Below are positions 12,001-58,800 of a stretch of 64,000 nt of DNA, one piece after another. Under the pieces are notes generated by a model. That model had not been told where the DNA came from. It was given only the letters and a program-made list of their open reading frames with translations, and did not search any database. Position numbers and translations under genes: made by a program. Origin of the DNA: Liolophura sinensis (lineage: Eukaryota; Mollusca; Polyplacophora; Chitonida; Chitonidae). Each line of letters opens with the position of its first letter. Position 1 is the stretch's first letter. The stretch covers positions 20,965,501 through 21,029,500 of the forward strand of contig NC_088303.1 in assembly GCF_032854445.1 (NCBI RefSeq), written 5' to 3'.

Positions 12001-15000
12001 AAGAACCACATCATGGTGATGAGGTTTTCGGTCAAAGCTTGACTCAGAGAATGCAGTATACATGTACATATAATCAGATATTTTGTATTGTGTAAGTGAT
12101 GCGTGTGAGGGAGAGCCATTGGGAGATTATCCCTTGAACACCCTAATATTCCTGTGTTAAAGTGACTTTCAAGTTAATCGTCCATCTTCAGTGAATGTGT
12201 ATGGATTATTGTTGAAGTTCATTAGAGTTTGGTGATATTTTATACATACATGTATATGGATCCTGTATTCTATTTGCCTGGTCTTTTTGCACTGATAACT
12301 AATCCAGTGAAATTAAACACCATATTTGCTTCTATCTTTCTATATTGCTCTTGCCCTACAAGTTGTATGGACACATCATTTGGAAATTATAAAAGAAATC
12401 CACATGTGACAGTGATGTACCTATTTAGAATGAAACGCTTTTTAGTACTACGTTGTACCACAGAAATTGATTTGTCAGGAAAATTTTGTGGGTGAAAATG
12501 ACCACAAAAAACCATGGACATCTGACCCAGAAGCTACATGAACATCAGACATGTAGGCACAGTGGTCATTTTTTAGGAGAAAATATGTACGTTTTTTGGT
12601 TGCATCAATATATCCCGAGGAAGCTGAGAGAACTACATGTAACCAACGCATACTTCTTTAGACTTTACATTTGAAAAAGGGAGGTTTGCATATCTGTGAG
12701 GTGTTGAAAGCAGATTATCAGATATATTATATAATCAGGAAGGTGTTCATTTAGAACAATCCTATGAAGTTTCTTTCTGTTCTTAGAGACTTGTTCTTTG
12801 TGATATGTAGCTGGCTGTCTAGACGTATTAAGTAAGTGTCGTGAGTCTAATTAAAGAAACGTAATCTAGTACAAAAATTCAAATATGTTTTTGCTGTCAG
12901 GTACATAGCAGGGGGTACGTGTGATGACATGTATTCTCTGGCCAGGTGTGGTCTCTCCCTTGGTTTCCTGTAATTTTCCCAACCTGGATTACTTTCCTCA
13001 GTGTTTGTTTTCATAATTTCCGTATGTACATGTACAATACTATCATCATGTATATGTGGATACAATGTATCCCTTAGCCCTTGAAAGACGTCCTCAGTTT
13101 GTTGCAGAGTTATATAGCTAGGTCATCTGTAAACAGTTGCTTGTCTGGTTACTGGTTACCATTTCTTGGTTTAGATTTTTCTTATTCACCTGGTGGGTCA
13201 GTGGTATTGTTGACGGAATCTTTGCACTGTAAGCATTATGTGAAGGGTTTCTGTATGTTTTCAGTTTCCATAGCAGCAGACTACGCCTAGGGGATTTAAG
13301 CGTGTTAGGGTGTAAATTTGAAGTGTATCAGTGTTGACTGTTTCGCTCATTTGTGGGCAGACTGGATCTTATGAGATCAACCAATCAGTGTCTGTGGAAA
13401 TGTCACGTGAGTACATACAGACACAGCTATTTGGGGTCACGTGGCCTTGAACATATCATGTGACAGTCTTTTGCCTTGAACCTATCATGTGACTGTCTTT
13501 CGCCGCTGAAATCTTAAAAAAGGGACAACAAATGTTGTTTGTGTGCGGGTAACCGATATTCAGGGTCATGTTAACAAACGCTGTCCAAAATGTCATTTGT
13601 TTTGTGTTACTCGACTTCGCTATTCTGACAAATGCCATTGCCCATGATGAAAACTGCTACTGTGTCCAAGATGGGAGACAGTCACATGGCTAGTGCAGAC
13701 ACGCCAGATTCTGTGAATCTACATGTATAACGACTTGCTCTATTGCACCATTATAGATGCTGGCTCTTCCCCTTAGAATCGCCAGTGATCCTGCCAGCCA
13801 AGTCCCATCTGTTTCCTCCCTGAATACTTACTCATGATAAATCCGGTGCGTAGACATTACTCAACATTCCTGCTCGGCCTGTAGTACCGACTGTTATCCA
13901 CAACTCTTGCAACATTGCTTAATTGGCTATCTTCATAGATTCAATACACAGATAATTAATGTTTATCATTTAAATGTATCTTAAACAATGCAAATTTGTT
14001 CAAGAAAACCTGAAGCTCAAGCTGAGCCACACTGCAAAGGAAACAGGCTGCTGTGCTCTTTGATGAAGTCTGGGAAGAATGTTATATAATAAGGGTTATA
14101 GTCATAATCTTGTAAAACAAGATTGCATCAGTTATTAAATGGGTGCTATTGAAACCTCAGACCTTTTCACTCCACATCCACTGTTATCCATAGACATAGC
14201 AACTATTTAATATTGTTCTAATTATACAGAATATCTTTTTTGATGACAGAGATCAAATATTACAATGCTATGTGATGCGCCATGGAAGTTTCACAGTGCC
14301 ATGTGAAGGCGCCATATGTTAATGTGTCTTGAAACACGATTTTGCATCACTTGTAGCCTCAAGCAAACAAGAGTTCGGGTGATGGAAACAGCTGTTTTCT
14401 CGGATTATAGAGATCATATCTCGCACCTGATTGATAAAAATTGGTAACATGGTGGCACTTAAGATTTTCTGAATGTGTGCGATTTTGCTGACTTTGATCT
14501 GCGAAGTTTTGGTTATGCTACATCACAAAGAAATCAGTTGATAGTGGTCATACATGTAAATTTATCTTTAATTTAAGAGATATGGAGTAGATGATTAATG
14601 GAATATAGTATCTAATGAATGTGAAAACGTTTGAAGCAAGAAAATCATCCTGACCATGGAGCGTGAAGTACTGTATATACATAAACATGTATACAGTACC
14701 TGAAAGAAGAACGCTAAATAAATCAAAATGATGAAGGCAAGCAATTCTATAGCTGCCAAAATTACCTGTACTTAGTAATTTTATTTTTAGAGACTAAATA
14801 ATCTTGACATTTCATTTGTGGAACTGCTGGAAATATTTAGTTTCCCGTAGCCTGGAAAGTCAAGCAGAACTTAACTAGCAGTGTTTCCACTAATATTTCT
14901 GCTGATAGTTAAAAAATTTTCATTCCTTGGATGTTAGAGCTCAGACGAACTTGTAAAATAGTTCTTTAGAGCCATTTCATGCAGCCAGGACTCACACAAG

Positions 15001-19027: not shown

Positions 19028-22000
19028 TATTCTCCACTTGAATTTGAGGATACTTTGTCGTCAGTTGTTGTGAGGGAGAGGGTGTATGGTGAATGTGGGA
19101 AATTACTTTCTGAGCGTAAAATCCGCTTGCTAGAGCACATGATCGTTGTACATCATGTCTTACGGAATATCATGTCACTGTGTGTTGATCAGTGGAAACT
19201 AAGAATCACTCTCTGAGGTATAAGAACCCCATATTCTGTCCTATTTCCTTATATTTGATATGCATGAACCATACAAATTTTTAATTTTATTCTTCATTCA
19301 CTATAACTGCAATTTCTGTGATCGTGCCAAATTGGAGGGGCTAATATTATGTACAGGTACATGTTGCTTCACACAAGTATGATGTCATCTGTCTACAGAT
19401 ACACATGTAGGCTGGATGATGTGCTCAAAATATGCTGTAATGTATAGACTCACAAAAAGGTGGGAAAACCTGCAGTTCATCTTTAGTTCACTGTGCTGAT
19501 CCCTGGGCAGAGAAGAAGCTGGCTCAGTGTCCCGTTCATTTGGTCAAGTCTTCAGCATACTGAGAGCATCTCTTAATAATGTATGCGCTAAGTGTATGTA
19601 AGACCTGGCTGATGTTTTTTTTTTTTTAAGCTCACTCTGTCTGAAGCCTAAGTATTGACACAGTTCATCTCAGTCTGGGCAGCTGAACTGGGCCATGAAT
19701 CCCTGTGTTTTTAAACAGCCAGAGCCAGACAGCTCTATATTTAGGGACAGTACTGCCAAGGCCAGTGTGCACCAATCAGAGCAGTGCAGGATCTCAGCAG
19801 GGATGTAGAGCCCTTCAGGATGTTGGTACACATGTGTACAAGTGAAGACACACCCCCAGTGCTTAAGGGTGTCACATTGCCCCTCTAACTCACCAATCAC
19901 AGTACCCCGTTTATTACTGATTACTGGTACACTTATTAAGTGTTGTCATATTTTTCTATTTTCTCAGTGCATGTGTGTGGCCATATTTCCTGCTCCTCTT
20001 TCTTGTGAATGACATCAACATCACAGTATGACTCTCATGTGATTCCATTTTAGTAGCGGTACTGTACCTCCAACATGCATGTCTACATGTACGTATGTGC
20101 ATATATGTATTCTGTACTGTGTATATTTCCAAACTTGTAAGCCAGTATGTCTTAATTTAACATTGATTTGAATTTTCTTACCCAAGAAAATTCTCTTATG
20201 TCCATGTATATGTTATGTACATTTAGAATAGTAGTTGATTCTATCGTGAAGTAATTTGTGCCCCCAGTGCACTGAAGATACATGTGTAAGCCGTGTCAAA
20301 ATTGATGCTTTTTTAATAGAGCCTGTTGCTAGAGGAGGACTGAATTCTGTAGATTGGACAAATGTCATATGTAAAACATGGTGTGTTTTATTATTAGAAA
20401 TGGTATGTTTTATTATTAAAAATGATGTATTTTATTAAAATCATGTAGGGGGTATGTTATTCCTGTGTACTTGTGGAATTAATGTCTGACTCTGTACAAA
20501 CCTTACTACTTATCTAAGGGGGGGTTATTGTAATATATATTGATTATTGTTGTACTTGTTCTACTTGTGCTCAAAACTACTGTATAGTCAGTGATAGGCC
20601 ATAACTGAATTAATCATTGATAAATTAATGCAGTTTTACCAGTGCTTGTTTAACACTAGTGCTGGCTCGTCCAGAGTTCCACTAACCTTGAACCAGTTCT
20701 AGTTTTGATCTCTTACAAATTTAAATTGTAGTGAACAAAAGTTAAATCCTTTTTTCCAACTGGTCAGATAAATATCTAGCCCTAATAGTCAGGAAAAGTT
20801 TCATACAAAAATTTTTTTAAAAAAATTTTTAATTTCGGCCATGAGTTGAAACACTACAGTATTAAAGACCATTAAAGGGATTCCCATTGACCCTAGAACG
20901 TACATGTACTTCAATTTTAGAAAACTGTAAAAAGTTAAAAAGAACTTTTTATATAAAAATATGTGAAATTTTGAGATGTTAAATATCATATATTGCATTA
21001 TGTTTGAGATGGACAGATATTTACATGTATGTTACCTACAATACAAAGTATTATCCATTACATATATTTAAACTAAATGAATCAGATGATCCTCCAAAGT
21101 CTTCTTTCATTGGTGAAAACTTTATCTAAATATAAATCAAGGGACACCCTAGGCACATTTTTTTTGCTATATCACTTTTATCATTGTAGGAAATTTCGCC
21201 TTTATATGAATAATAAATCTGCCTAGCTTGTCCCTCAGGCTTTGGGCATGGGATACACTGGTGTCATTCATTGAATGAAATAAACGAATTCACATGCACC
21301 ATTTACAAATAGATCCAACAGTGCTGTATTCAGGTACAATTTGGCAACATTGTAACAATCATTGAAATTCTGAGAACATTTGTGCAATCATGCATAGTTT
21401 TTACCTACATGTGGATGTGGCTTGTAACTCAATCCCTAATGCTCTTGGCAATGATACATGTAATTTCCCATTGCAGAAAACACTAATTGTGATGTAAAAG
21501 CCATATTGGAATCATTTCACCTAAGCAATTTTGGACATCCATCGTGATAAACAAAGCTCCGGAAATTATTGAGGTATGTTTTTCTGGTCTGGAGTTTGCT
21601 GTTCGAGATCGCGTACATCCTGGCATTTGCCGTTCCACATACGGTGGTGTAAACATCGATACAAAACTCTGCCTCATGGCCTCATAAATCCAGAATTTTG
21701 TTCTGTTGACATTCAAAATTTATACATGCTGTGCACATTGTTCTGTTGGCTAAAACACTATAACTTTCTGGTTATTGTCAGCCAAAGTACTTCTCAGAAT
21801 ATCGTCCAATGTTGTTCATTTCCCTATACTTTCCCATCGTTATCTGCTTGTGGCTGCCACGTGAGAATGAAGTGCCTGTATGTGCACTGTCGTTTAATTA
21901 ATGAAGGCTGCAGAGACATGTGCATGTGTATACTTGTAGGAATGCCATGGCAGCATGTTGTGCTAATAAAGCTGCTGTGATCATATCTGTCCTCTTGTTT

Positions 22001-25000
22001 GGGGGGGGGAGGGGGTGAGGGGAGGGGCAGTGTTCTCCTTCAGTTCATGACTCAGTCTCAGGTTTATGGGTCAGTGAGACTATGTCCAGTCATCCCTGCT
22101 GGCCAGCCACCCTGTTAGACTGTTACTCATAACCCCTGCTGTAAACAAACTGAGTATCTCTGTATCTCTGTCCCTGACTGAGCAGCCATTGTGATGGTCA
22201 CACCTCTAGGATAAGCAGCCAGGGTATCCATAGCCAGCCAGAGATGCAGGACAGTGAGAAGATTATGGGCCATTCAGGATCAGGGAAAATGAGTGGTGGA
22301 ATGATACATGACCCGATTGAGGGCCTCTAAATGTAAAAGTACATGTAAACCTACATGCATGGACACCTCGTCAGTTGTGTTGGGGAGACCAGTGTTATTA
22401 TTGTAGTCTCATGAAGCAGTTCTAACTGTATCTCTCATCTACAATCTGTACTAAGGTGTACCTTAGTTTATGATGATCTGAGTATTAGGAGTTTAATTCA
22501 GTTGCCTCGTGGTCTTCCAAGTGGCTTTGCTTAAATGTACGTGTATTTAATAAACCAACATGATATACCTGTATTTTTTTTGTTTGAAATCCCCTTGGTA
22601 CAGATATACATGTAGATATTAAAAGTTTTATTTTTAAGTAAATGGAGACCCCTAAAGCTATACTCAACAAGTGTGCTGTATATGTTTGTCATTGTGCGTG
22701 TGCAGAGTTTGAAATCATCTTGTATACCCAAATTCTTCTAATTTTTGGACAGATTGTAGTAGTGCTGAAAGCAGAGTAAAGATATGAAAAGTAAAGAAAT
22801 GAGTATGTTATTCATCAAATTGTCTAACCATGTGGGACAACTAACTATTCCTGCTATAGTGTACATGTATGTTGTCTAAAAAGAGCGTACCAGCTGTCCC
22901 ATTTAGAATAAGTAGGGCATCTGAATGCTCATGTGTATTTAACCATTATGCATGATTGTAGGTGTAGCTTTTTAAAGTTTGCTGAAACTCATGCATACTG
23001 AATGAAGACCCCAAGAGCTACATGTATACCCAGTTAATTAAACCACTGACTAAGGGGTGTTTGTAATGTGTACATACTTCTTCAAATTAGGGAGAAAAGA
23101 AAAGAAGTAATCATCACCAGGAAGACTAAAAGTGCTATGTCAATATCCTAAAATTAATGTATCAATTTCACATGATTTTCATTAATGAAATTTCGAAGTG
23201 AGGAAATTTACTGTATGGTAATGGTGGCATTATTGTGTGTTATGTCCAAGGAATGCAACAAGGTGGCATTCAGGTGTGAATATAGTTCATGTACACATAT
23301 GAGATGTGACTCTGGTTTTATCAGAAAAGGCTTTTTTTTTTTCTTTTTTTTTTATACATGTACCCCTGACAGTTGGAATTTTTGACCATGTCTTCAATTG
23401 CCATCATGTTTTCTGAGCAACGTACCTCCCACATTGTAGAGGGTTGAATGATACCGTACACTTCAAAGTTCCTGAGATTTAATGCACTTGTATATTGAGG
23501 CCACAGACCTGTGAATATGCAGGTATATATTGCACAAATGTATGGGTTGATAAAAACAAAGGAAGTTCTGTGGCAGGCGATATGGGCAGGTCCAGACACT
23601 GTCGTCAGCAGAATATATCCCAACTGTATTGGGCTGAAGTCAGGAGGAAGTAAGGGAGGCTAAAAGCTGGCCGCTGGGTCCTATTCTAATATTTGTTTTG
23701 GCTGTTGAGCAGGAGTTTTGTCTGTGGATTTGCCACTTGCCTGTGTTTGTTAGAAGTCCTTGTTTGCCTGTGGATTCTTCCAGCATCTCAACCCATACAC
23801 AAAGCAATATGTCAACTTGGAGACCGGGTGCTTTTTTGTGGCCTGACTTAGACCCACTGACAACATGCCAGCTACAATTGAAGCTGGATACAGGCAACTC
23901 CTTAGAAGAAGTTTGTCCTTGTCCTTCTCATTTTTTTCTTCTTTTTTTTTTTGTAGTTGAAATTTTTTCCCCCTCTTTTCATGAAGTTGTGCGTCTTTGC
24001 ACTGCTGTGCATTTGTTAATGTAAATGCTGTTGACATGCATGCTCTTTACATGACTAGCTTCACACCGGCATTCGTTTAACTTGGAAATCTGATTTGGAG
24101 GGGGAAACTTGCTCTCAAGGTAAAGAAAATCTTAACTAACATTTACCTGTATAGCTGTTACAATCAGATTCCATTTCCAGGTGCAGTGTAAACCATTGAG
24201 TTCATATGAACTTAGCAGCATTCATGGTATGCTATACAGCTTCAGACGTGACGTACTGTGTGTGTGTGTGCGTGTACACATATGTGTTTGCATGGGTTAT
24301 GTTTTGACATATTTGAGAGTGTTATATGTACAGGTGTAGTTTCTATGGTTCCTATACCTGTAAATGATGAAAGGGACCACTTAATGCAGCCACAGGCAGA
24401 AGCAGTGTGTAAAGGCACCTTTATGATGGTACCCTCATGATATGTCTTATTTACATATACATGCATGAAAAAAATCAGATTCTTGTTTTAAAACACTTTA
24501 TGATAACATTTTGTTCTGTTATTCTTAATTCATTTATAATATACATATGTACATATGTATGTATGTACATTAAAGGTACATCTTACCCATACATGTACAA
24601 AAAGAGTATTGAATTCTCATAAATTACATGTTTCTTCTCTTGAAGCCAAACATTGACCAATTTGTCTATTGGACATTGGGATTTTTTATCATAGTTTAGG
24701 TGAGAGGAGGTATCAGTAGGCCATATTCAGGAATTCTTTATTTTGATGTGTGGGGTCCTATCAGGTTTGAAGCTGGAGAAAAGGAGCAGAGGTTGAATAC
24801 CATTGTCATACAGGATACCTTTTCATAGTTTAATCTTAGTGCCTTGATGGCAAGAAGCGGTTGAAGGTGTTCTGTCACGTAGGGTTACATGAAGTTGAGT
24901 GGAGACATCTTGCCCTTCACCTACATGTACATGTAAATGATGTGCTTCACATATGAAGAGTCAGCCAGTAACTTGCCAAAGTTCAGTGGTTTGCTCCCAA

Positions 25001-25485: not shown

Positions 25486-25708
25486 ATGGAGGTGGGTCTT
25501 CGTGCGGTTCGTGGTCCCGACTGGAAGTGGACCAATCAGGACGACGGAGAAGGCCACTTAGGCACAGTTGTGGAGATTGGCAAGCCCGGAAGTACGACGT
25601 CTCCAGACAAAACCGTTGTGGTGCAGTGGGATTCGGGCTCCAGAACCAATTACCGTGTGGGTTACCAAGGAGCTTTTGATCTCCGTATTTTAGACAATGC
25701 ACCAATAG
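25486..25708 (+). CDS. mib2: mib2 exon 1: first MIB/HERC2 domain
   Basis: Encodes residues 1-74 and the first base of G75: [20 protein letters not shown] onwards, with [20 protein letters not shown], the hallmark of a MIB/HERC2 domain. The donor is GTAAGC. The exon may extend 5' as leader. Confidence 0.95.
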
Positions 25709-34700: not shown

Positions 34701-37700
34701 ACTATGAGTGTGAATGTGAGTCCTAACCAGATAGCTGTCAAATGTAAAACCGTGTACGAGGACATTTGATATATCATAGAACTTCCTGACATTCCAGCAT
34801 GGGTTTAATGTTATAAAAGGAGGTTAAAAAGATTTAGTAAGCTGTGACAAAGTTTTAATTAATTATGAAATACCTCAATGCAACTAGTATTTTTGCACAT
34901 TTGCAGAAACCAGCCAGAAATAACAGAGCTACTTCTGCAGAAGGGTGCAGGCATCGATGCCCTCAACAAGGGAGGTTGTAGCACACTGCACGTGGCTGTC
35001 AACAAACAGCACCTCAAGTGTGTCAAAGTCCTGCTCAAGCATAAGTGCAATGTCAATATTCAGGTAAACTTGTTCACACATGCCCTTTGGGCACAAATAA
35101 CACTGTCATCCCATCAGGGGGTCCTCCGTGGCCTAGTGGATGGCACGTTAGTGCAGCACAGTCACCCAGAAGCCTCTAACCAATGTGATCGCTGTGAGAC
35201 CAGCTAATGCAGGCTTCTAGTCTGGCCATACACAGGAAGGTCTGCAGCAACCTACGGATGGTTGTGGGTTTCCTCCCACCATATTACTGGCTGTCATCAT
35301 TTAAGTGAAATATTCTTCTTCTAAATTGAAAACTCCAATCCTATGAATTCATTACATAAGCTGTAATTCTGAGTCATGCCAGCAGTATGGACCAAAATAT
35401 AGTTGGTTAGCTGATCAGCATAGCTTAAATTGATGCAATGGGAAACCTTTCAGATCCCACCTAAAGTAACTTGGGCGTAAACTGTGTAATTGGTTGTTTG
35501 TTTATGCCTTTGTGATTTGTGGCAAACTCATTAACTGGTAATGTAGTAATTAGGTTCAGTGGTCAACCATGCTTGGTCCCCGGGTCACCGTTAGACGAGA
35601 AAAGCTACCTGATTGATATCCCAACAGTACTTTTCAGAGTATCACTGTCATTATTTATTAGTTAATGTGGTAAGAAGTGTTTGTCAGAGAAAACAGTTGT
35701 TTGTGTTGATCGGTTTTGAAGTAAAGCTCTTTTCTTATGCCATCTGGTAACAACACTTTAGGTTTGTTCAGTCATTAGCTAGGGAAACTTTGCATCTGTT
35801 TACCAGGCATTGTCAATCATTGATGTGGTATTTTTTCAGGATGCTTATGGGGACACAGCACTTCACGACGCCATCGGAAAAGAAAATCGGGAAATCATAG
35901 ACATACTCGTAAACTATCCAGGAATAGATTTTACCCTCCGAAACAAAAGAGGCTTTAATGTCCTACATCATGCAGCATTGAAGGGGAATAACTTGTGAGT
36001 AATAATGCCTATGCAAAACACGGCCTATTCACGGCAATGGTTTTCGTATCGATAAAGCTGTGTAAATTTATTCAATGATTTAAATCTTTTTGAAATACTT
36101 AAATTAGTCAGCCTTTTTAACTGCCTCTGCGACTGATATTTTGAAACATTCGGATAGAACTATGGTGAGTAGAGAAATTATTTATACAGTTTTGTTGAGC
36201 TTGTGTTTGTAATGATGTTAACAAATCATTTTAATGTTTTCCTAATAATTGTCTGCATATATTCTACTGACACTGTTTGCTGAGAATTGGATGCTTTTAT
36301 TTCTTGTCCATATTACTCAATAATTCTTGATCTTTTTGTTCAAGTGACAACTCTCGTCTGGAATGGAACCATTGATTAGGCATAAGACCTTGAGTGCAAA
36401 TATAACCCTTGAAACAATAAAACAGTTTTACATAAATGATAAGTCATGTGATACACGTATGAGTAGATGTATATGTTAACAGTGGGATGTTACTTTATGT
36501 CATGGTATTTTCCTGATTTTTTCTCACAGAGCTACAGAGAAAATATTGGGGAAATGTCGACAGATTGTTGACATCAAGAAAGATGATGGATTTTCAGCGC
36601 TTCATTTAGCGGCATTGAATGGCCACAAGGATGTCTCCAACACATTGTTAACTGTGGTACGTTGTTCATTGACCATTGTAGACAAACTTTTTGTGTACGA
36701 CCGAGAGTCCTGCAAATTCATTCCAACCAAAACTGTTTATTTGTATAAGTAAATGTACATGTAAAAGTAGAACAATTCATAGCAAAATTTTCTCTACGGT
36801 TATATTTTCATCTCTGATGTCTTTAAAGATGGAATTGTATTCCTCCAGTTGGATGATCGATTTTGTTTTGCATGTGGAAAATATAGTTTCAAATGTGTTG
36901 ACATGTTGATTTTTCATCTGCCAGGGTCAAGCCGACATCGAGATTCAGAATAACCGACAACAAACACCTCTACTGCTGGCTGTGTCTCAGGGGCATACTG
37001 CTCTGATAGAGCTCCTTGTTACCAAAGGTAAGGTTTACAGTGTTGAGACCTTTATTGCTGGCTGTGTCTCAGGGGCATACTGCTCTGATAGAGCTCATTG
37101 TTACCAAAGGTAAGTTTTACAGTGTTGAGACCTTTATTGCTGGCTGTGTCTCAGGGGCATACTGCTCTGATAGAGCTCCTTGTTACCAAAGGTAAGGGCT
37201 ACAGTGTTGATACCTTTACTGCTGGCTGTGTCTCAAGGGCATACTGGTCTGATAGGGCTCCTCGTTACCAAAGGTAAGGGCTACAGTGTTGATACCTTTA
37301 CTACTGGCTGTGTCTCAAGGGCATACTGGTCTGATAAGGATCCTCGTTACCAAAGGTAAGGGCTACAGTGTTGATACCTTTACTGCTGGCTGTGTCTCAA
37401 GGGCATACTGGTCTGATAGAGCTCCTCATTACCAAAGGTAAGGGTTACAGTGTTGATACCTTTACTGCTGGCTGTGTCTCAGGGGCATACTGTTCTGATA
37501 GAGCTCCTTGTTACCAAAGGTAAGGGCTACAGTGTTGATACCTTTACTGCTAGCTGTGTCTCAGGGGCATACTGCTCTGATAGAGCTCCTCGTTACCAAA
37601 GGTAAGGGTTACAGAGTTGATACCTTTACTGCTGGCTGTGTCTCGGGCATACTGCTCTGATAGAGCTCCTCATTACCAAAGGTAAGGGTTACAGAGTTGA

Positions 37701-40429
37701 TACCTTTACTGCTGGCTGTGTCTCAGGGGCATACTGTTCTGATAGAGCTCCCTGTTACCAAAGGTAAGGGCTACAGTGTTGATACCTTTACTGCTGGCTG
37801 TTTCTCAGGGGCATACTGCTCTGACAGAGCTCCTTGTTACCAAAGGTAAGGGTTACAGAGTTGACAGATCTACTGCTGGCTGAGTTTATCACGCAGATAT
37901 TGTAGAGTTCCTCATTACCAAAGGTAAGATTTCAGTGTTGACACCTTTACTACTGGCTGAGTCTATCATACAGATATTGTAGAGCTCCCTGTTACCAAAG
38001 ATAAGGGCTACAGTGTTGACACCTTTACTGCTGGCTGTGTCTCAGGAGCATACTGGTCTGATAGAGCTCCTTGTTACTAAAGGTAATTTCATTTGTCTGT
38101 CTTTTGTCAGTTTCACTTATCTCAGTGTTACATCTGTTATATTGATTTTTGTTATCCATCATGTTAATTTGTCTCAAGCAGAATTACATGCTGCATTGAT
38201 CTATCGCATTACATGTGTCACATTGATTAATCTCATTCTTATGTATGTCACACTGATTTATCTCATTACATGTCTTACATTGATTAATCTCATTACCTGT
38301 GTCACATTGATTTACCTCATTGTTATTTGTGTCACATTGATTTGTCTCATTATATGTCCCACATTGATTTCCAGGATCCGATGTGAGTGTTGAAGATGAA
38401 GATGGAGATACATGTTTGCACTTAGCCTTGATGCGCCAGACTGTTGCCACGGAAACAGAAAACTCACCGATGCTTGATGCTGTAAGCATTAATTTCCCAA
38501 CATGCAGAATTATCATGTTCACACTGATTTAGTTTGTACTTACATTGGATGAAGTTTACTAAATCAGAAAAAAACTGTGTCCAAAAAGTAATGATTCCTT
38601 GGGGACAAGTCTTAAAAAAAAAAAAAAAAATACATTTGTGTTTTCTACGATGAAGATACCTGAGGTGTAACATTTCAAATGATTACACATACTGAGTTAA
38701 GTATAGCTGCAGACTTGACAGAATGTGCCTTGGTTAGGTGACCAGGCTCAACCTTACTTTCCACTTTCAGATCCGAGCTCAGTTGAACATGACTCAGAAT
38801 GAGAGTCAGACCGGTGCTGCTATAGCGTGCTACCTCGCCCAGCAGGGGGCCAGCCTCACACACCGCAACCACCAGGGCAAGTCTCCCATGGACCTGATAA
38901 ACGACCCACGCATAGAGGAGGCTGTGCGACAGTTCTCTGCCGGCCAGTAAGTACTCATCTGTCCCTCTCACAAATTATATTTTATGGGAGAATTTTTCTA
39001 TGGTAATGTCATTCCACGTTACACTAGAATACATGTGTATGTAATGCTTTGAAATATTTATGGTAGAAAGTGTTTAGTGTGCGGTTTCAGTAAAAGTCAG
39101 TATTTTGCACTGAAACAGTTCTTGGCAAAAATCTTTGTTTTCTTTCTTCTTCCAAAATTGAAAACGAAATTAGTATTCAATATCCTATGGTAAGCCAAGA
39201 CTATCTTTGGGTTTGCCTCAAATTATTTAAAAATATTAATTTTGTAAATATTTTTTCATGTTTTTATGTAAGGTCATGGTAAGCTAAAATATGCCAATTT
39301 CCTCAGATTTGCTATGTGTGTTTTTGTTGTGCATAGGCATGGGAACACAGCTGACATCCAGGCTACAGTAGAAGATATGGTGCCGTCGTCATCATCAACA
39401 GACATACGAGAGTGTCGCGTGTGCTGTGATCAGCCAGCTGATGTCACCTTCCAGCCCTGCAGACACCAGCTGGTGTGTGACGAGTGCTGTATCAAAATGA
39501 AGAAATGTTTAGAATGTCAGCAACTCATCACCTCAAAAATCAGTAAAGGTAAAATTTGAAATTTTGTTGGGTTACAGGGTGTTATATTATAAAGGAGAGT
39601 TTGTCTAGTCATAATGGCCGTGCTAGTGTAATCAGACAGTAATCAGATATGTTCAAGGAGCAAACTTTTTTGCCTGGTACCTAGGAACCACAACCTGTGT
39701 TGTAGCATTTATCTTGTGTTGTGAAATAAGTTGGAGTGTTGCAATGGTCATTGTTACTTTATACATTCATCTGCTGGTATGCCATGTATTAATAAGGTGA
39801 TATTGTTGTATCAGTGTGACAATGTTAAATTTTGTCCTAAAAACATAAGGGGAGCAAGTAATGCAAAATTCCCTCTCTCACACTGCTTGTGTGGCCTTGG
39901 TGACAACAAGTGTTGAGTGCATGTGTTGCCATTTGTGTAGTGTAACAGTCATTGAAGGCCACCTGTCTTCTAGAAGCAAGGTGTTCATATCTGTATGGCG
40001 CATGTGGAAAAGTTCGTCAGTGACCTGCCAGAGGTAGGTGGTTTATGCAGGGCATTCTGGTTTGCTCCACCCATATAGCTGACTGCCTGTATATGAGTGA
40101 AACATTCTTGAGCATGCTGTTAAACAACAAAGAAATAAACACAAACAAATGAAAGACACAAGTGATTTTACGCACACGTTTTTTTTTTTGTTTCAGACGG
40201 AAGTGTTATCAGTGAGTTAGATACTGCTCAGCCTACAGAGTCTGACGTTACGAAGCTACAGAAGAAAGTACGGGAAATGGAAGAAACATTAATGTGTGGA
40301 ATCTGTATGGAGAGGCCCAGAAACATGGCATTTTTATGTGGACATACAGTCTGTAGCCAGTGTGGTGACTCACTCAAGATATGTCACATGTGCAGGAAGC
40401 AGATTCTCAAGAAGATTACCCTGTTTTAG
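25486..40429 (+). CDS. mib2: mind bomb 2, E3 ubiquitin ligase, 18 coding exons, 926 aa
   Basis: Mind bomb proteins are cytoplasmic RING ligases that ubiquitinate Notch ligands such as Delta and drive their endocytosis. Exons: 25486-25708, 26379-26550, 27273-27379, 28805-28999, 29422-29561, 30388-30498, 30984-31088, 31692-31863, 32340-32476, 34316-34464, 34907-35063, 35840-35994, 36530-36656, 36925-37027, 38375-38481, 38771-38946, 39337-39548, 40197-40429. All phases join and the total is 2781 bases. Order: MIB/HERC2 (about 1-76), ZZ (83-120), MIB/HERC2 (about 148-222), MIB repeats (about 240-400), ankyrin repeats (about 410-775), RING (805-839), RING (883-915). Two RINGs rather than three, and the length, point to MIB2 rather than MIB1. 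The ATG at 25486 has A at -3 and G at +4, and the only upstream in-frame signal is a stop at 25303. Confidence 0.95.
25826..25908 (-). mobile_element. SINE 3' fragment in mib2 intron 1
   Basis: Matches the 3' half of the window's SINE family in reverse: GCTGTACTCAAGAATATTTC, then GACGGCGGCCAGCATTATTG and GGAAACCGGG. No tRNA-like head is present. Confidence 0.7.
26379..26550 (+). CDS. mib2: mib2 exon 2: ZZ zinc finger
   Basis: Residues 75-131. All eight expected zinc ligands are visible: C83, C86, C98, C101, C107, C110, H116 and H120, with the [18 protein letters not shown] core. The acceptor is TTGTAG; the donor is the less common GTTAGT. Confidence 0.95.
27273..27379 (+). CDS. mib2: mib2 exon 3: start of second MIB/HERC2
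   Basis: Residues 132-167, ending [16 protein letters not shown], the start of the second MIB/HERC2 domain. Split glycines at both ends join exons 2 and 4. The donor is GTAAGT. Confidence 0.93.
28805..28999 (+). CDS. mib2: mib2 exon 4: rest of second MIB/HERC2
   Basis: Residues 168-232 with [20 protein letters not shown] and [15 protein letters not shown]. The acceptor is TTTCCAG and the donor GTAGGC. A long A-rich intron part precedes it. Confidence 0.94.
29422..29561 (+). CDS. mib2: mib2 exon 5: MIB repeat region
   Basis: Residues 233-279, with [20 protein letters not shown] and [11 protein letters not shown], the first MIB (SH3-like) repeat that recognises ligand tails in the family. The acceptor follows a T-rich tract; the donor is GTGAGC; phase 0. 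Confidence 0.93.
30388..30498 (+). CDS. mib2: mib2 exon 6: MIB repeat
   Basis: 37 codons, residues 280-316, [20 protein letters not shown] then [14 protein letters not shown]. Phase 0 on both sides. The acceptor is TTTCAG and the donor GTAAAC. Confidence 0.93.
30984..31088 (+). CDS. mib2: mib2 exon 7: MIB repeat
   Basis: 35 codons, residues 317-351, [20 protein letters not shown] then [11 protein letters not shown], repeating the pattern of exon 5. Phase 0 on both sides, so exons 6 and 7 could each be skipped without shifting frame. The donor is GTAAGT. Confidence 0.92.
31692..31863 (+). CDS. mib2: mib2 exon 8: last MIB repeat
   Basis: Residues 352-408, [20 protein letters not shown] then [15 protein letters not shown], followed by a polar linker (HEREERSRG). 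The acceptor is TTGTAG and the donor GTAAGC. It ends in phase 1. Confidence 0.92.
32011..32177 (+). mobile_element. 5'-truncated SINE with perfect 18-bp target duplication in mib2 intron 8
   Basis: The body starts at CTGGCTTCCTCTCTGGCC and runs to the AAAT-type tail. TCAAAAGAAAATTACATG occurs at 31993-32010 and again at 32178-32195, a perfect 18-bp duplication. The tRNA-like head is absent, as expected when target-primed reverse transcription stops early. Confidence 0.88.
32340..32476 (+). CDS. mib2: mib2 exon 9: linker into ankyrin repeats
   Basis: Residues 409-454, with [20 protein letters not shown], the first ankyrin helix pair. The acceptor is GTTTAG and the donor GTTAGA, a weak form. 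Confidence 0.9.
34049..34219 (+). mobile_element. Diverged SINE copy in mib2 intron 9
   Basis: Retains GTGTGCCAGCTCAGCACAAT, CAGCAACCTGTGGATGGTCG and an AAATAAATAAAC tail. The tRNA head is only partly preserved. Confidence 0.65.
34316..34464 (+). CDS. mib2: mib2 exon 10: ankyrin repeats
   Basis: Residues 455-503: [20 protein letters not shown] and [14 protein letters not shown], one full ankyrin repeat and the start of the next. The acceptor is GTTCAG and the donor GTATGT. Confidence 0.94.
34907..35063 (+). CDS. mib2: mib2 exon 11: ankyrin repeats
   Basis: Residues 504-556: [20 protein letters not shown] and [20 protein letters not shown]. The split glycine joins exon 10. The donor is GTAAAC; it ends in phase 0. 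Confidence 0.94.
35126..35330 (+). mobile_element. SINE copy in mib2 intron 11
   Basis: The tRNA-like head TCCTCCGTGGCCTAGTGGAT is followed by the B-box region GATCGCTGTGAGACC, then the body TCTGGCCATACACAGGAAGG and AAGTGAAATATTCTTC. Diverged, with the tail lost. Confidence 0.75.
35840..35994 (+). CDS. mib2: mib2 exon 12: ankyrin repeats
   Basis: Residues 557-607: [20 protein letters not shown] and [15 protein letters not shown]. The acceptor follows TTTTTTCAG and the donor is GTGAGT. It ends in phase 2. Confidence 0.94.
36530..36656 (+). CDS. mib2: mib2 exon 13: ankyrin repeat
   Basis: Residues 608-650: [20 protein letters not shown] and [20 protein letters not shown]. The acceptor is TTCTCACAG and the donor GTACGT. 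It ends in phase 0. Confidence 0.93.
36925..37027 (+). CDS. mib2: mib2 exon 14: ankyrin repeat; its 3' end is copied many times downstream
   Basis: Residues 651-684 and the first base of G685: [20 protein letters not shown] and [14 protein letters not shown]. The donor GTAAGG at 37028 is the first of about 13 intact copies in the following array. I chose it because it joins exon 15 in phase with no insertion relative to the family pattern. Confidence 0.92.
37028..38082 (+). repeat. 82-bp tandem array copying the 3' end and splice donor of mib2 exon 14
   Basis: Donor-like GTAAG starts at 37028, 37110, 37192, 37274, 37356, 37438, 37520, 37602, 37682, 37764, 37846 and 37924; the next is mutated to ATAAG at 38001; the last is at 38083. 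Spacing is 82 bp, apart from one 80 and the decayed units of 78 and 77. Each unit is about 13 intron bases (GTAAGGGCTACAG) plus 69 bases copied from the exon. Those 69 bases keep the exon frame as 23 codons in most units. Confidence 0.93.
38190..38374 (+). repeat. 27-30-bp tandem repeat forming the acceptor side of mib2 intron 14
   Basis: About seven units of TGTGTCACATTGATTTATCT plus CATTAC, with units of 25-30 bp. The last unit becomes CACATTGATTTCCAG, the exon 15 acceptor, so the pyrimidine tract is repeat sequence. Confidence 0.85.
38375..38481 (+). CDS. mib2: mib2 exon 15: ankyrin repeat
   Basis: Residues 685-720: [20 protein letters not shown] then an insert-like [15 protein letters not shown]. 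The acceptor TTTCCAG is the last unit of a tandem repeat. The donor is GTAAGC. Confidence 0.92.
38771..38946 (+). CDS. mib2: mib2 exon 16: last ankyrin repeat
   Basis: Residues 721-778: [20 protein letters not shown] and [19 protein letters not shown]. The acceptor is TTTCAG and the donor GTAAGT. Confidence 0.93.
39337..39548 (+). CDS. mib2: mib2 exon 17: first RING finger
   Basis: Residues 779-849. A serine-rich linker leads to a C3HC4-type RING with ligands C805, C808, C820, H822, C826, C829, C836 and C839. The acceptor is GCATAG and the donor GTAAAA. Confidence 0.95.
39965..40150 (+). mobile_element. Decayed SINE in mib2 intron 17
   Basis: Weak match to the family body: TATATGAGTGAAACATTCTT, GAGCATGCTGTTAAACAAC and an AAATAAAC-like tail. 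It lies directly upstream of the exon 18 acceptor tract. Confidence 0.5.
40197..40429 (+). CDS. mib2: mib2 exon 18: coiled linker, second (C-terminal) RING, stop
   Basis: Residues 850-926. A charged helix ([15 protein letters not shown]) precedes the RING ligands C883, C886, C897, H899, C902, C905, C912 and C915, with the catalytic-type [12 protein letters not shown] core. The protein ends ILKKITLF and TAG. Confidence 0.95.
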
Positions 40430-46590: not shown

Positions 46591-48712
46591 AAGCTCAGTT
46601 TATGTGTTCCCTATTTGTGTAAGGTAAGTGATGGACAAGAAACTTCGTGTATGTGTTCCCTATTTGTGTAAGGTAAGTGATGGCCAAGAAACTTCATGTA
46701 TGTGTTCCCTAGTTGTGTAAGGTAAGTAATGGCCAAGAAACTTCATGTATGTGTGCCCTATTTGTGTAATGTATGTGATGGCCAAGAAACTTCATGTATG
46801 TGTGCCCTATTTGTGTAAGGTATGTGATGGCCAAGAAACTTCATGTATGTGTGCCCTATTTGTGTAAGGTATGTGATGGCCAAGAAACTTCACGTATGTG
46901 TGCCCCATTTGAGTAAGGTATGTGATGGCCAAGAAATGTCACGTATGCATGCCCTATTTGTGTAAGGTAAGTGATGGCCAAGAAACTTCATGTATGCGTG
47001 CCCCATTTGTGTAAGGTAAGTGATGGCCAAGAAACTTCATGTATGCGTGCCCTGTTTGTGTAAGGTAAGTGATGGCCAAGAAACTTCACGTATGCGTGCC
47101 CTGTTTGTGTAAGGTAAGTGATGGCCAAGAAAGTTCATGTATGCGTGCCCCGTTTGTGTAAGGTAAGTGATGGCCAAGAAACTTCACGTATGCATGCCCT
47201 GTTTGTGTAAGGTAAGTGATGGCCAAGAAACTTCGTGTATGTGTGCCCTATTTGTGTAAGGTAAGTGATGGCCAAGAAACTTCATGTATGCGTGCCCTAT
47301 TTGTGTAAGGTAAGTGATGGCCAAGAAACTTCACGTATGTGTGCCCTATTTGTGTAAGGTAAGTGATGGCCAAGAAACTTCATGTATGCGTGCCCTATTT
47401 GTGTAAGGTAAGTGATGGCCAAGAAACTTCACGTATGTGTGCCCTATTTGTGTAAGGTAAGTGATGGCCAAGAAAGTTCATGTATGCATGCCCTATTTGT
47501 GTAAGGTATGTGATGGCCTAGAGCCTTCACGTATGCGTGCCCTATTTGTGTAAGGTAAGTGATGGCCAAGAAACTTCATGTATGCGTGCCCTATTTGTGT
47601 AAGGTAAGTGATGGCCAAGAAACTTCACGTATGTGTGCCCTATTTGTGTAAGGTAAGTGATGGCCAAGAAAGTTCATGTATGTGTGCCCTATTTGTGTAA
47701 GGTAAGTGATGGCCAAGAAACTTCACGTATGCATGCCCTATTTGTGTAAGGTAAGTGATGGCCAAGAAACTTCATGTATGCGTGCCCTATTTGTGTAAGG
47801 TAAGTGATGGCCAAGAAACTTCACGTATGTGTGCCCTATTTGTGTAAGGTAAGTGATGGCCAAGAAAGTTCATGTATGCGTGCCCTATTTGTGTAAGGTA
47901 AGTGATGGCCTAGAGCCTTCACGTATGCGTGCCCTATTTGTGTAAGGTAAGTGATGGCCAAGAAACTTCATGTATGCGTGCCCTATTTGTGTAAGGTAAG
48001 TGATGGCCAAGAAACTTCACGTATGTGTGCCCTATTTGTGTAAGGTAAGTGATGGCCAAGAAACTTCATGTATGCGTGCCCTATTTGTGTAAGGTAAGTG
48101 ATGGCCAAGAAACTTCACGTATGCATGCCCTATTTGTGTAAGGTAAGTGATGGCCAAGAAACTTCATGTATGCGTGCCCTATTTGTGTAAGGTAAGTGAT
48201 GGCCAAGAAACTTCACGTATGTGTGCCCTATTTGTGTAAGGTAAGTGATGGCCAAGAAAGTTCATGTATGCGTGCCCTATTTGTGTAAGGTAAGCGATGG
48301 CCTAGAGCCTTCACGTATGCGTGCCCTATTTGTGTAAGGTAAGTGATGGCCTAGAAACTTCACGTATGCCTGCCCTATTTGTGTAAGATAAGTGATGGCC
48401 AAGAAACTTCACGTATGCCTGCCCTATTTGTGTAAGATAAGTGATGGCCAAGAAACTTCACGTATGCCTGCCCTATTTGTGTAAGATAAGTGATGGCCAA
48501 GAAACTTCACGTATGCGTGCCCTATTTGTGTAAGGTAAGTGATGACCAAGAAACTTCACGTATGCCTGCCCTATTTGTGTAAGATAAGTGATGGCCAAGA
48601 AACTTCACATATGCGTGCCCTATTTGTGTAAGATAAGTGATGGCCAAGAAACTTCACATATGCGTGCCCTATTTGTGTAAGGTAAGTGATGGCCAAGAAA
48701 CTTCATGTAAGT
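46591..48712. repeat. 49-bp satellite array, about 43 units, with 392-bp higher-order period
   Basis: The unit reads AAGAAACTTCATGTATGCGT then GCCCTATTTGTGTAAGGTAA and GTGATGGCC. Marker variant TAGAGCC occurs at 47519, 47911 and 48303, exactly 392 bp (8 units) apart, and the variants between the markers recur in nearly the same order. Edge units at both ends are more diverged or of separate subtypes. It lies just beyond the 3' end of sigmar1. Confidence 0.95.
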
Positions 48713-55851: not shown

Positions 55852-58800
55852 CTAAAACAAATAAATACCGAAGAAAGTTGTGTTGAGCGTAACCACTGAA
55901 GATTTAAATACTGATTTTTTTTACTCATTTAGCTAAATGAATGAGTAATATTACCCTTATATTTTTTTTTAATTAAACGCTGAAGATCAGATCTATTGGT
56001 GGTAAAAAATTTAAAGTTTTATACTGAAATAGTCGTTATAAAATTTACTATTTAAATTTTGTAATATGCCTATGTATTTCCATGGTTTTGATTCTACTGG
56101 ATAAGAAACTTCGTGCACCAGGTTCCTGGCGTCAGTAATTTTTCCTGATTCCATCCACCTGTGTTGGGTACAATAACCAGCGTCATTCATTTAGGCAAAG
56201 TTTTTCAACATTTTTCATTAGACTAAACACCATTTTATGTTCCAAGATGTCAAAGATAGTAATTATGACGATGGCGATTCTGACGAAAGCGTCTGAAGGG
56301 ATCCAAGGATTTATGAATCCTTCGTGGGCTACCGTATAAACTAATATAGGAATTCATCAATAATCGTAATCTAGAACAACAGATATCTGCCGATGATATC
56401 TGTTGTATCAAAGTCATCGGTTACCCGGGGGAAACCCTTGACAATCCGCAGGTTGCTGTCAGGCCTCCCCATGTACCACCGGAGAGGCAGCCAGTTTGAG
56501 CTGTATTTGAAATCACAGCGACCGCTTTGGTGAGAGGTCATTCTGCTGCGCTAGCACGCTAATGAATATCTGCGTGTGCTATTTGCTTTATCGAAGTCAT
56601 GAGCTAGTATCTCGTCCTCTAGGACAACGTGCTGTCAGCTTTATCGAAGTTATCAGCAGCCAGCTAATCTCGTCATCTAGAACAATAAACGCTCACTGCC
56701 ATCTGAATTCACCGAGCATCATGTACTGGTTCATCTCATCACTTAAGGGCAATGTACGCTCCCGTGTGTCATCTGCTTTGAGAAAGGCAACGGGTACTAA
56801 CTGACCTCATCGCCAAGGACAGTATACGCTCATGTTAGTCATCTGCTTCGAGAAACACAACGGGTACCAGCTGCGTGATCTCATCACCTACGACAATGTA
56901 CGTTCACGTGAGTCATCTGCTTTGAGAAACACAACGGGTACTAGCTGCGTGATCTCATCACCTAGGACAATGTACGCTCACGTGTGCCATCAGCTTTGAG
57001 AACCACAACGGGTACTAGTTGATCTCGTCACCTAGGACAATGTACGCTCAGGTGTGCCATCAGCTTTGAGAAAAGCCACGGGTACTGGCTGATATCGTGA
57101 CATGGGACAATGTACGTCGACGTGTGCCATCTGCTTTGAGAAACACAACGGGCAATATAGGTCATCTCATCACATAGGGCGAAGTATGCTCACATGTCCC
57201 ATCTGCTTTGAGAAACGTAACGGGAGCTAGCTGATCCCATCACTTAGGACAATGTACGTTCACGTGTGCCATATTCTTTGAGAAAGACAACGGGTAATAT
57301 AGCTCATCTCATCACAGAGGGCAAAGATGCTCACATGTCCCATCTGCTTTGAGAAAGGCAAGGGGAAGTAGCTGATCCCAACACCAAGGACAATGTATAC
57401 TTATGTTCGCCATCTGCTGTGAAAAGGACATGTTGATGTCGACATAGGACAATGTACGCTCACGTGTGGCATCTGCTTTGAAAAAGGCATGGGGAACTAG
57501 CTGATCTCAGCACAGGGCGATGTATAGGCTTGTGCTCTCACGACGTCATTGGGGATTAGAGAATCTTGTCATCTAGAACAATGGGCGCTTGCGTATGCTC
57601 TGTACTGTGACAACTTCACTCTGCATTACAGGATCTTATCATTTAAGACAATGGATGCTAGCGTGTGCTCTGTGCTGTTACGACGTCAGCAGGCATTAGA
57701 GGATCTTGTTTTCTAGGACAATGGACAACGGACGATGTATCCGTCATCACAAACACCCGGATATCGTTATCTAGAGCAAGAATGTGCTGTTTACTTTCGC
57801 AAAGTAATCAGTTAAGAGAGGAACATACAGAACAATGATCGCTAACGTGTGTTATTTGCTTTCGCGAAGCCATCGAATACAAAATGATGTTGTCATATAG
57901 AACACTGAACGCTCATGCGCGTGTCCTTTATCTGCTTTTGCGAACCCAATAGGCCTATAACGTCATACAGCGGGTATCATCATCCGGGCCATCAGTGCTT
58001 TCACTAGATATCTACAAGAGGATCTCGTACTCTAGCACAATGAACAAGTGTCAAATCTACCAAAAGAAAACATGACAAGTGCTGCCTGTATCGGAAAAAG
58101 AAGTGAAGGGTCTATTTAGAGTTGAGTTAATCTGCGACGATGTAATTTAATATTGTTTAAGGGTCTTAGGCAGCATTGAGAAACGCCTTAGTCAACTTAG
58201 CCAGCGAAAGCAATGAAAATCTATTTATCCAAATATAAGCTTTGCAAACGGAGTTATATTTAATACCTATGCAATGGCGTACGTTCTCTAGGTGGTTTCT
58301 AGAAGGTTTAAGACAAGGCCTCACATTTAGCTTTGGATAAGAGAAAAGCACCGTAATAAAACAATGTAATGTTTTTAAATTCGACTATGACACACACAGC
58401 GTTTTGATGTTACTATAGTTAATTTTTTCAAAGAGTCGCCTATATTTAGTTATCTGTAAAATCAGTCATGCTCGCCACAAAAATTGCCTTTAGTCAGTGA
58501 CACGTAACATCACAATCACATTGTATGTTTGACGTTCACATTATTGTAAGGAAAATGAAGCTAGAACACTTTTCAAAAACCACTGTCATGCTGGATATTG
58601 GGCGGAGTTCAACATGTTTTGACGGAGGGCCACACCATTTACCTAAACTGCTATCGATTTTACTTTAAAGGAGAAGAAAATTTAAAAACATGACACTATG
58701 GGCTGAAAAGAGCACATTTTTTTCTATCTGGTGGTGCCTGCAGCATAATTTTGCCATTTTCCCTCGCCCTACACCTAAAGTCTGAAAACGCAAAGCTGGC

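Follow-up and report, generated by a model that had tools for sequence, protein, structure and literature searches.

The 82-bp tandem array that starts inside exon 14 of a mind bomb gene in the chiton Liolophura sinensis raises the question of whether a splice donor multiplied in place serves as a source of new transcripts or is the by-product of a minisatellite. We favor, with a probability of about 0.78, the reading that the array is a neutral exon-border minisatellite lying in the intron, which is hidden by the choice of the first donor and whose units are exchanged between paralogs. This reading relies on a neutral pattern of codon changes, on the stops that follow use of any later donor, and on the occurrence of arrays at the homologous donor of paralogs and at other exon ends.

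The window, i.e., the whole stretch of 64,000 nucleotides that was analyzed, corresponds to C9:20965501-21029500 of the L. sinensis assembly (609,464,459 bases in 632 contigs); genome searches scored the best candidates only, and copies could thus be missed. All window features given below are on the plus strand. Profile matches in the window gene comprised MIB_HERC2, ZZ, SH3_15 (the mind bomb SH3 repeat), ankyrin, and RING domains. Its MIB_HERC2 exon (25495-25692) scored 97.2 bits, the best among the genome matches listed, and the last domains found were two RING fingers in separate exons (39407-39535 and 40289-40408). We took two RINGs to denote MIB2 and three to denote MIB1; among the best 150 of 304 candidates scored, two RINGs were counted in the window gene and three in another gene at C7:372875-375976. 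The predicted domain set fits a MIB2-like gene and agrees with the name mib2 given by an earlier annotation made from the letters alone (hereafter, the sequence-only reading), whose count of predicted exons is retained here. Exon 13 (36530-36656; acceptor at 36530, donor at 36657) lies in the ankyrin region and is conserved in two paralogs, D and C, as revealed by tblastx. Exon 14 (36925-37027), delimited by frame, ankyrin matches, and homology to the array units, ends at a phase-1 donor; on its own, it matched Ank_2 (E = 0.00035) and Ank (E = 0.00049) under Pfam's cut-off. Exon 15 (38375-38481) follows the acceptor CACATTGATTTCCAG/GATCC, which scored 7.3. The array copies thus sit between two exons that tblastx identifies as conserved, within an intron of 1.35 kb. 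The assembly was built from PacBio HiFi reads and was first published as Liolophura japonica (PMC11068029), a species name later corrected to L. sinensis (PMC12441733). The mean read length stated in the assembly paper, 8.3 kb (PMC11068029), allows reads to span the 1.1-kb array, which makes an assembly artifact unlikely.

Tandem Repeats Finder (TRF) delimited the array at 36966-38086, with period 82, 13.8 copies, 88% matches, and a score of 1640, bearing out the roughly 13-fold repetition that had been described at this donor; nhmmer recognized 15 full or partial units. Fourteen donor positions are in register, exon 14's own at 37028 included, and their spacing is 82 except for one interval each of 80, 78, and 77. 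Homology of the units to the exon reaches back 62 bases from the donor (identity at 59, 60, and 57 of these 62 in three comparisons), and extension from the donor at 37028 yields a unit of about 62 exon and 20 intron bases. The unit had been divided into 69 coding and 13 intron bases; this division does not hold, since 7 of the 69 "coding bases," the leading ones, derive from the intron. The TACAG said to end the intron piece of every unit occurs behind the donor in 12 of 13 units, with TTTCAG in the other one, and the 23 codons in exon phase are likewise a property of most units only: the 69-nt frame is retained in 10 of 13, and the remaining three pieces (67, 65, and 65 nt) are frameshifted. 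Two shortened units, W11 and W12 (CAGATATTGTAGAG; 37862-38013), differ from the rest and have mostly units of paralog D as their nearest relatives. Between the array and the acceptor, TRF found a second tandem repeat with units of 27 to 30 bp (38183-38370), which stops some 4 bases short of the exon-15 acceptor. Intron 14 consists mostly of tandem repeat.

The authentic donor, AAG/GTAAGG (first intron bases 37028-37036), forms a predicted U1 duplex of -10.0 kcal/mol, which makes it the strongest among the gene's 16 assigned donor sites. The other 15, which were picked near the ends of exon blocks and some of which may be wrong, range from -4.3 to -9.6 kcal/mol. Thirteen further donor positions, located by register and U1 score within 37110-38091, follow at 37110, 37192, 37274, 37356, 37438, 37520, 37602, 37682, 37764, 37846, 37924, 38001, and 38083. 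As had been proposed, most of them keep a GTAAG (11/13; GT in 12/13): ten pair with U1 at -10.0 or -10.1 and one at -9.5 kcal/mol, whereas 38001 reads ATAAG and 38083 reads GTAATT. Computed joining of any of these 13 positions to exon 15 results in a premature stop.

A tandem duplication across the 3′ end of exon 14, spanning some 62 bases of the exon plus the donor and 20 bases of the intron, would have seeded the array. The first exon copy and its donor would remain intact, with the extra copies falling within the intron, from which splicing would remove them provided that the choice falls on the first donor. Duplications hidden in this way from selection, presumably neutral at the level of splicing, would be free to expand, decay, and homogenize, probably driven by slippage and unequal exchange; paralog D, about 2.65 Mb away, has an array at its homologous donor with which units would also be swapped. 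Birth from an exon-intron border, which the sequence-only reading had offered as its alternative, is thus the option that the composition of the unit (62 exon bases, donor, and 20 intron bases) favors. Purifying selection on the coding part of the units, for which a test had been suggested, was not apparent among the ten 82-bp units, the three shorter ones being left out of the count: 7 distinct changes were synonymous, 13 were nonsynonymous, and none created a stop, in line with neutral shares of 0.34, 0.64, and 0.02. Of the three codon positions, the second has the largest number of changes.

Arrays at the homologous donor also occur in MIB2-like paralogs located 2.5 to 2.7 Mb away, in a cluster at C9:23.38-23.68 Mb. 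Paralog D (C9:23655346-23656950, minus strand), retrieved by DNA search of the genome, contains after this donor about 20 units of 59 to 105 bp, which were located by their donor-like end, so that units lacking one would be merged. The in-frame 69-nt piece is found in 1 of the 20; 16 are out of frame, and 3 lack a CAG or TAG at the expected place. In paralogs A, B, and C (L002-L004), about 97 to 98% identical over the exon 13-15 region, the same donor is followed some tens of bases later by a 74-bp array of diverged sequence. Another MIB_HERC2 match, at C9:23381752-23386209, possibly represents the 5′ portion of paralog A. Among the papers listed for MIB2 expansion in molluscs, none seemed relevant from its title and abstract. 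Repeats of an exon's own end were found in 1 of 19 conserved exon blocks of the window gene (exon 14), in 2 of 16 blocks of D at the donor end (exons 14 and 15), and in none of 16 blocks of C, although the C array exists. The exon-15 end of D is repeated with its donor about five times in decayed 89-bp units (sense 21937-22426 of the joined D region, L001). Unit 6 of the D exon-14 array, 105 bp long, seems by eye to hold an inverted piece of the unit. A 43-bp intronic array of the joined D region (sense 14446-14884) comes within about 5 bases of the acceptor of an ankyrin exon; it was considered as an acceptor-side exon array and discarded, as it consists of intron only and abuts the exon without entering it.

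Units appear to have moved between the window and D loci. The two genes are identical at 149 of 248 fourfold sites when all rows are counted and at 114 of 208 (about 55%) once the array row (19/19) and two dispersed-repeat rows (12/15 and 4/6) are set aside, and DNA comparison of window positions 36001-39500 with L001 returned matches at the exons and the array only. D unit 7, however, is 96% identical to window unit 6 and 95% identical to both the exon end and four further units of the window, as against at most 85% to other D units. W11 matches D3 best (0.80), followed by W12 and D9 (0.79), and the best match of W12 is D9 (0.85). Since units devoid of coding constraint are 96% alike in genes whose fourfold sites agree at only about 55%, the simplest reading is a recent exchange of units between the two arrays, the direction and mechanism of which we infer.

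How the A/B/C-type array relates to that of the window and D bears on a variant of the preferred explanation, in which amplification occurred independently at the same donor in the two lineages, the site being a mutational hotspot, instead of descending from one ancestral array. Unit lengths differ (74 and 82), and the non-exon junctions of the C-type and window units align weakly, with a p value of 0.018 for one consensus and of 0.11 to 0.39 for five other versions, both of which are compatible with separate origins. Against this, whole-unit alignment scored 82 versus a shuffled maximum of 30, although much of that score is owed to the shared exon end. We therefore regard independent amplification as possible and adopt it at most tentatively.

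Arrays at exon ends are not confined to MIB2-like genes. A genome-wide scan for three AAGGTAAG motifs spaced 60 to 90 bases apart, with the motif read backwards as a control, returned 369 + 243 (612) triplets versus 284 + 197 (481), so that donor-motif arrays are only mildly commoner. Among the matches listed, grouping by position resolved 29 distinct arrays on C1-C3, and the span common to both lists contained 28 donor-motif and 19 control arrays. Inspection of the stretch upstream of each of the 29 placed at least four at the end of a coding exon that shows PDB homology and ends at the first donor: MSH6 (1.3e-10; 53 exon bases in the unit), a PDE5-like gene (4.5e-17; 66 bases), an aminopeptidase N-like gene (L015, C2:1306763; 3.4e-5; about 17 bases), and a SID1-family gene (1.8e-8; about 9 bases). 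Pfam missed or weakly scored short exons that the PDB searches recognized. Three more arrays, L018, L021, and L037, have exon-like flanks with no PDB match and units with 28, 45, and 41 exon bases, respectively; these are likely exon-end arrays as well. No such exon was seen upstream of the remaining 22 listed arrays, for at least five of which (L024, L025, L032, L033, and L034) the examined piece starts inside the array, the true start being outside the view. L015, L033, and L034 (C2:1306763, 1338012, and 1368848) are three similar 74-bp donor arrays, and the latter two may be paralogs of the aminopeptidase N-like one. Collectively, these data suggest that exon-end arrays recur in this chiton, with an enrichment at exon ends hinted at by one 8-base motif among the matches listed. 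The window itself holds other arrays. A 49-bp one at 46601-48709 (43 copies, 93% matches) has AAGGTAAGT in most of its units and is placed some 6 kb past the final RING exon; it was set apart as being far from the gene and because its listed genome matches are itself and one of 54 bases. Downstream of the gene, at 56723-57726, TRF also detected diverged tandem arrays with a period of 70 bp (142 bp).

That five MIB2-like genes have arrays at the same donor could reflect function instead of long neutral persistence, and the exon-derived part of the unit does provide material for it. Seven TCTCAG sites, with putative acceptor cuts at 37073, 37155, 37483, 37565, 37727, 37809, and 38046, are each followed 37 nt later by the unit donor, defining seven candidate pseudoexons within 37073-38082 whose inclusion would shift the frame and lead to a stop in every case. 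These pseudoexons, together with about a dozen decoy donors, might divert transcripts to decayed mRNA, the number of units tuning MIB2 output. The TCTCAG sites score 7.5 to 9.1, at or above the median of authentic acceptors (7.4 for 38 acceptors, three of 41 having been left out); with the 41-acceptor matrix, six of the seven exceed the exon-15 acceptor (7.3). The donors that close the pseudoexons equal the strongest in the gene, and the donor core, 14 columns reading TTACCAAAGGTAAG, shows the least change of any part of the window unit: it accumulated 3 changes in the window array versus a mean of 10.4, and random columns were as low in 1.3% of draws. The corresponding figures are 19 versus 32 (6.8%) in D, where 9 of 69 windows are as quiet, and 22 versus 41.6 (2.2%) for both arrays together. 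The trees behind these counts were built without the donor region, and the choice of test followed the observation of the pattern; the low change could mean constraint on the donors, but the sign is a weak one. GT is kept in 19 of 20 D units, a count biased by the finding of units through their donor-like end.

The acceptors are less persuasive. Arrays of shuffled units produced at least six such sites in 12.5% of 200 trials, and the other introns of the gene contain 18 of them in 10.4 kb (1.73 per kb); chance can thus explain the pseudoexon acceptors. Sites that reach the median number only 7 for the 13 window units, 3 in the D array, and 0 in the C array. We consider this diversion into decay unlikely. 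The same low standing applies to its broader form, by which equal donors and 37-nt pseudoexons would act as a brake on MIB2-like genes that works and can be tuned by copy number, selection on the donor core having kept it at one and the same donor in the five genes, and exon-end arrays would be a recurrent regulatory device in the chiton and not debris; we doubt it.

Productive use of the units has still less in its favor. According to the sequence-only reading, splicing into later units would add whole ankyrin helix pairs, each 69-nt cassette running from a TACAG to the next donor and contributing 23 residues. Nine of 12 possible cassettes are in frame and open, with introns of at least 95 nt, as a result of the coding exon having been copied recently. 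An ankyrin repeat measures 33 residues, and thus the 23 residues of a unit do not make a whole one. Moreover, the twelve TACAG or TTTCAG sites score only -1.1 to 3.4, under the 3.8 that marks the lowest tenth of 41 reference acceptors (mean 6.7, median 7.1, minimum -8.7), a few of which score lower than the TACAG sites; these references were picked by script near the starts of exon blocks in three paralogs and taken as authentic. A usable acceptor is therefore not predicted before the cassettes, where the pyrimidine share averages 0.32, compared with 0.65 upstream of authentic sites. Together with the neutral codon pattern (7:13:0) and the single in-frame piece among 20 D units, these poor acceptors led us to reject the 69-nt splice-in, which we deem very improbable. 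Recursive splicing, with the AAAG/GTAAG of each unit as a ratchet point and a zero-length exon, was rejected as just as improbable on its acceptor score: AG and GT do adjoin in 12 of 13 downstream units, 11 of which would regenerate a strong donor, but the AAAG/GT acceptors score -5.0 to 1.6, do not conform to the consensus (Y)nNCAG/GTAAGT quoted from PMC5126111, and lie in an intron of merely 1.35 kb.

Read as a neutral exon-border minisatellite, the array provides a natural setting for testing how the first donor is chosen among about twelve near-identical strong ones, 82 bases apart, and how often that choice fails. It also suggests a rule, namely that a duplication crossing the donor can amplify exon sequence without cost, since the mRNA can stay unchanged. 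Exon-end arrays can mislead gene annotation and are raw material for new splice forms.

Related systems are known from other animals. The CeRep25B minisatellite of Caenorhabditis elegans, located near alternative splicing, resembles the chiton array in its possible relevance to splicing, but the repeat occurs near many genes, and the abstract describing it makes no mention of an origin in a neighboring exon (PMC4039745). Intron gain via tandem duplication of an AGGT segment, as outlined in PMC4974935, similarly copies splice signals by a duplication across the exon-intron border, whereas the chiton copies sit within an existing intron. For human segmentally duplicated genes, De Grassi and Ciccarelli reported in 2009 internal tandem repeats at exon-intron boundaries, with 27 intron modifications (PMC2812944). 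Both those repeats, as summarized there, and the chiton arrays are minisatellite expansions that cover exon-intron borders and vary among paralogs; the human cases concern near-identical, primate-specific paralogs, whereas the chiton genes are more diverged and the array presents about a dozen nearly equal donors. From what the title and citing passages convey, the closest precedent is the minisatellite of human IFI6, which has multiple donor sites (PMC3618361, PMC4526556), two downstream repeat units serving as donors that generate different isoforms (PMC4526556). By an IFI6-type definition of our own, drawn from that title and those passages and including the use of more than one unit donor in mRNA, the chiton array is a candidate of the same kind: it begins at the 3′ end of a coding exon, and its units have consensus donors (GT in 12/13, GTAAG in 11/13). 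In both, a tandem repeat offers splice donors unit by unit; unlike that of IFI6 as cited, the chiton unit is 82 bp long and mostly exon-derived, and every downstream donor is predicted to give a stop.
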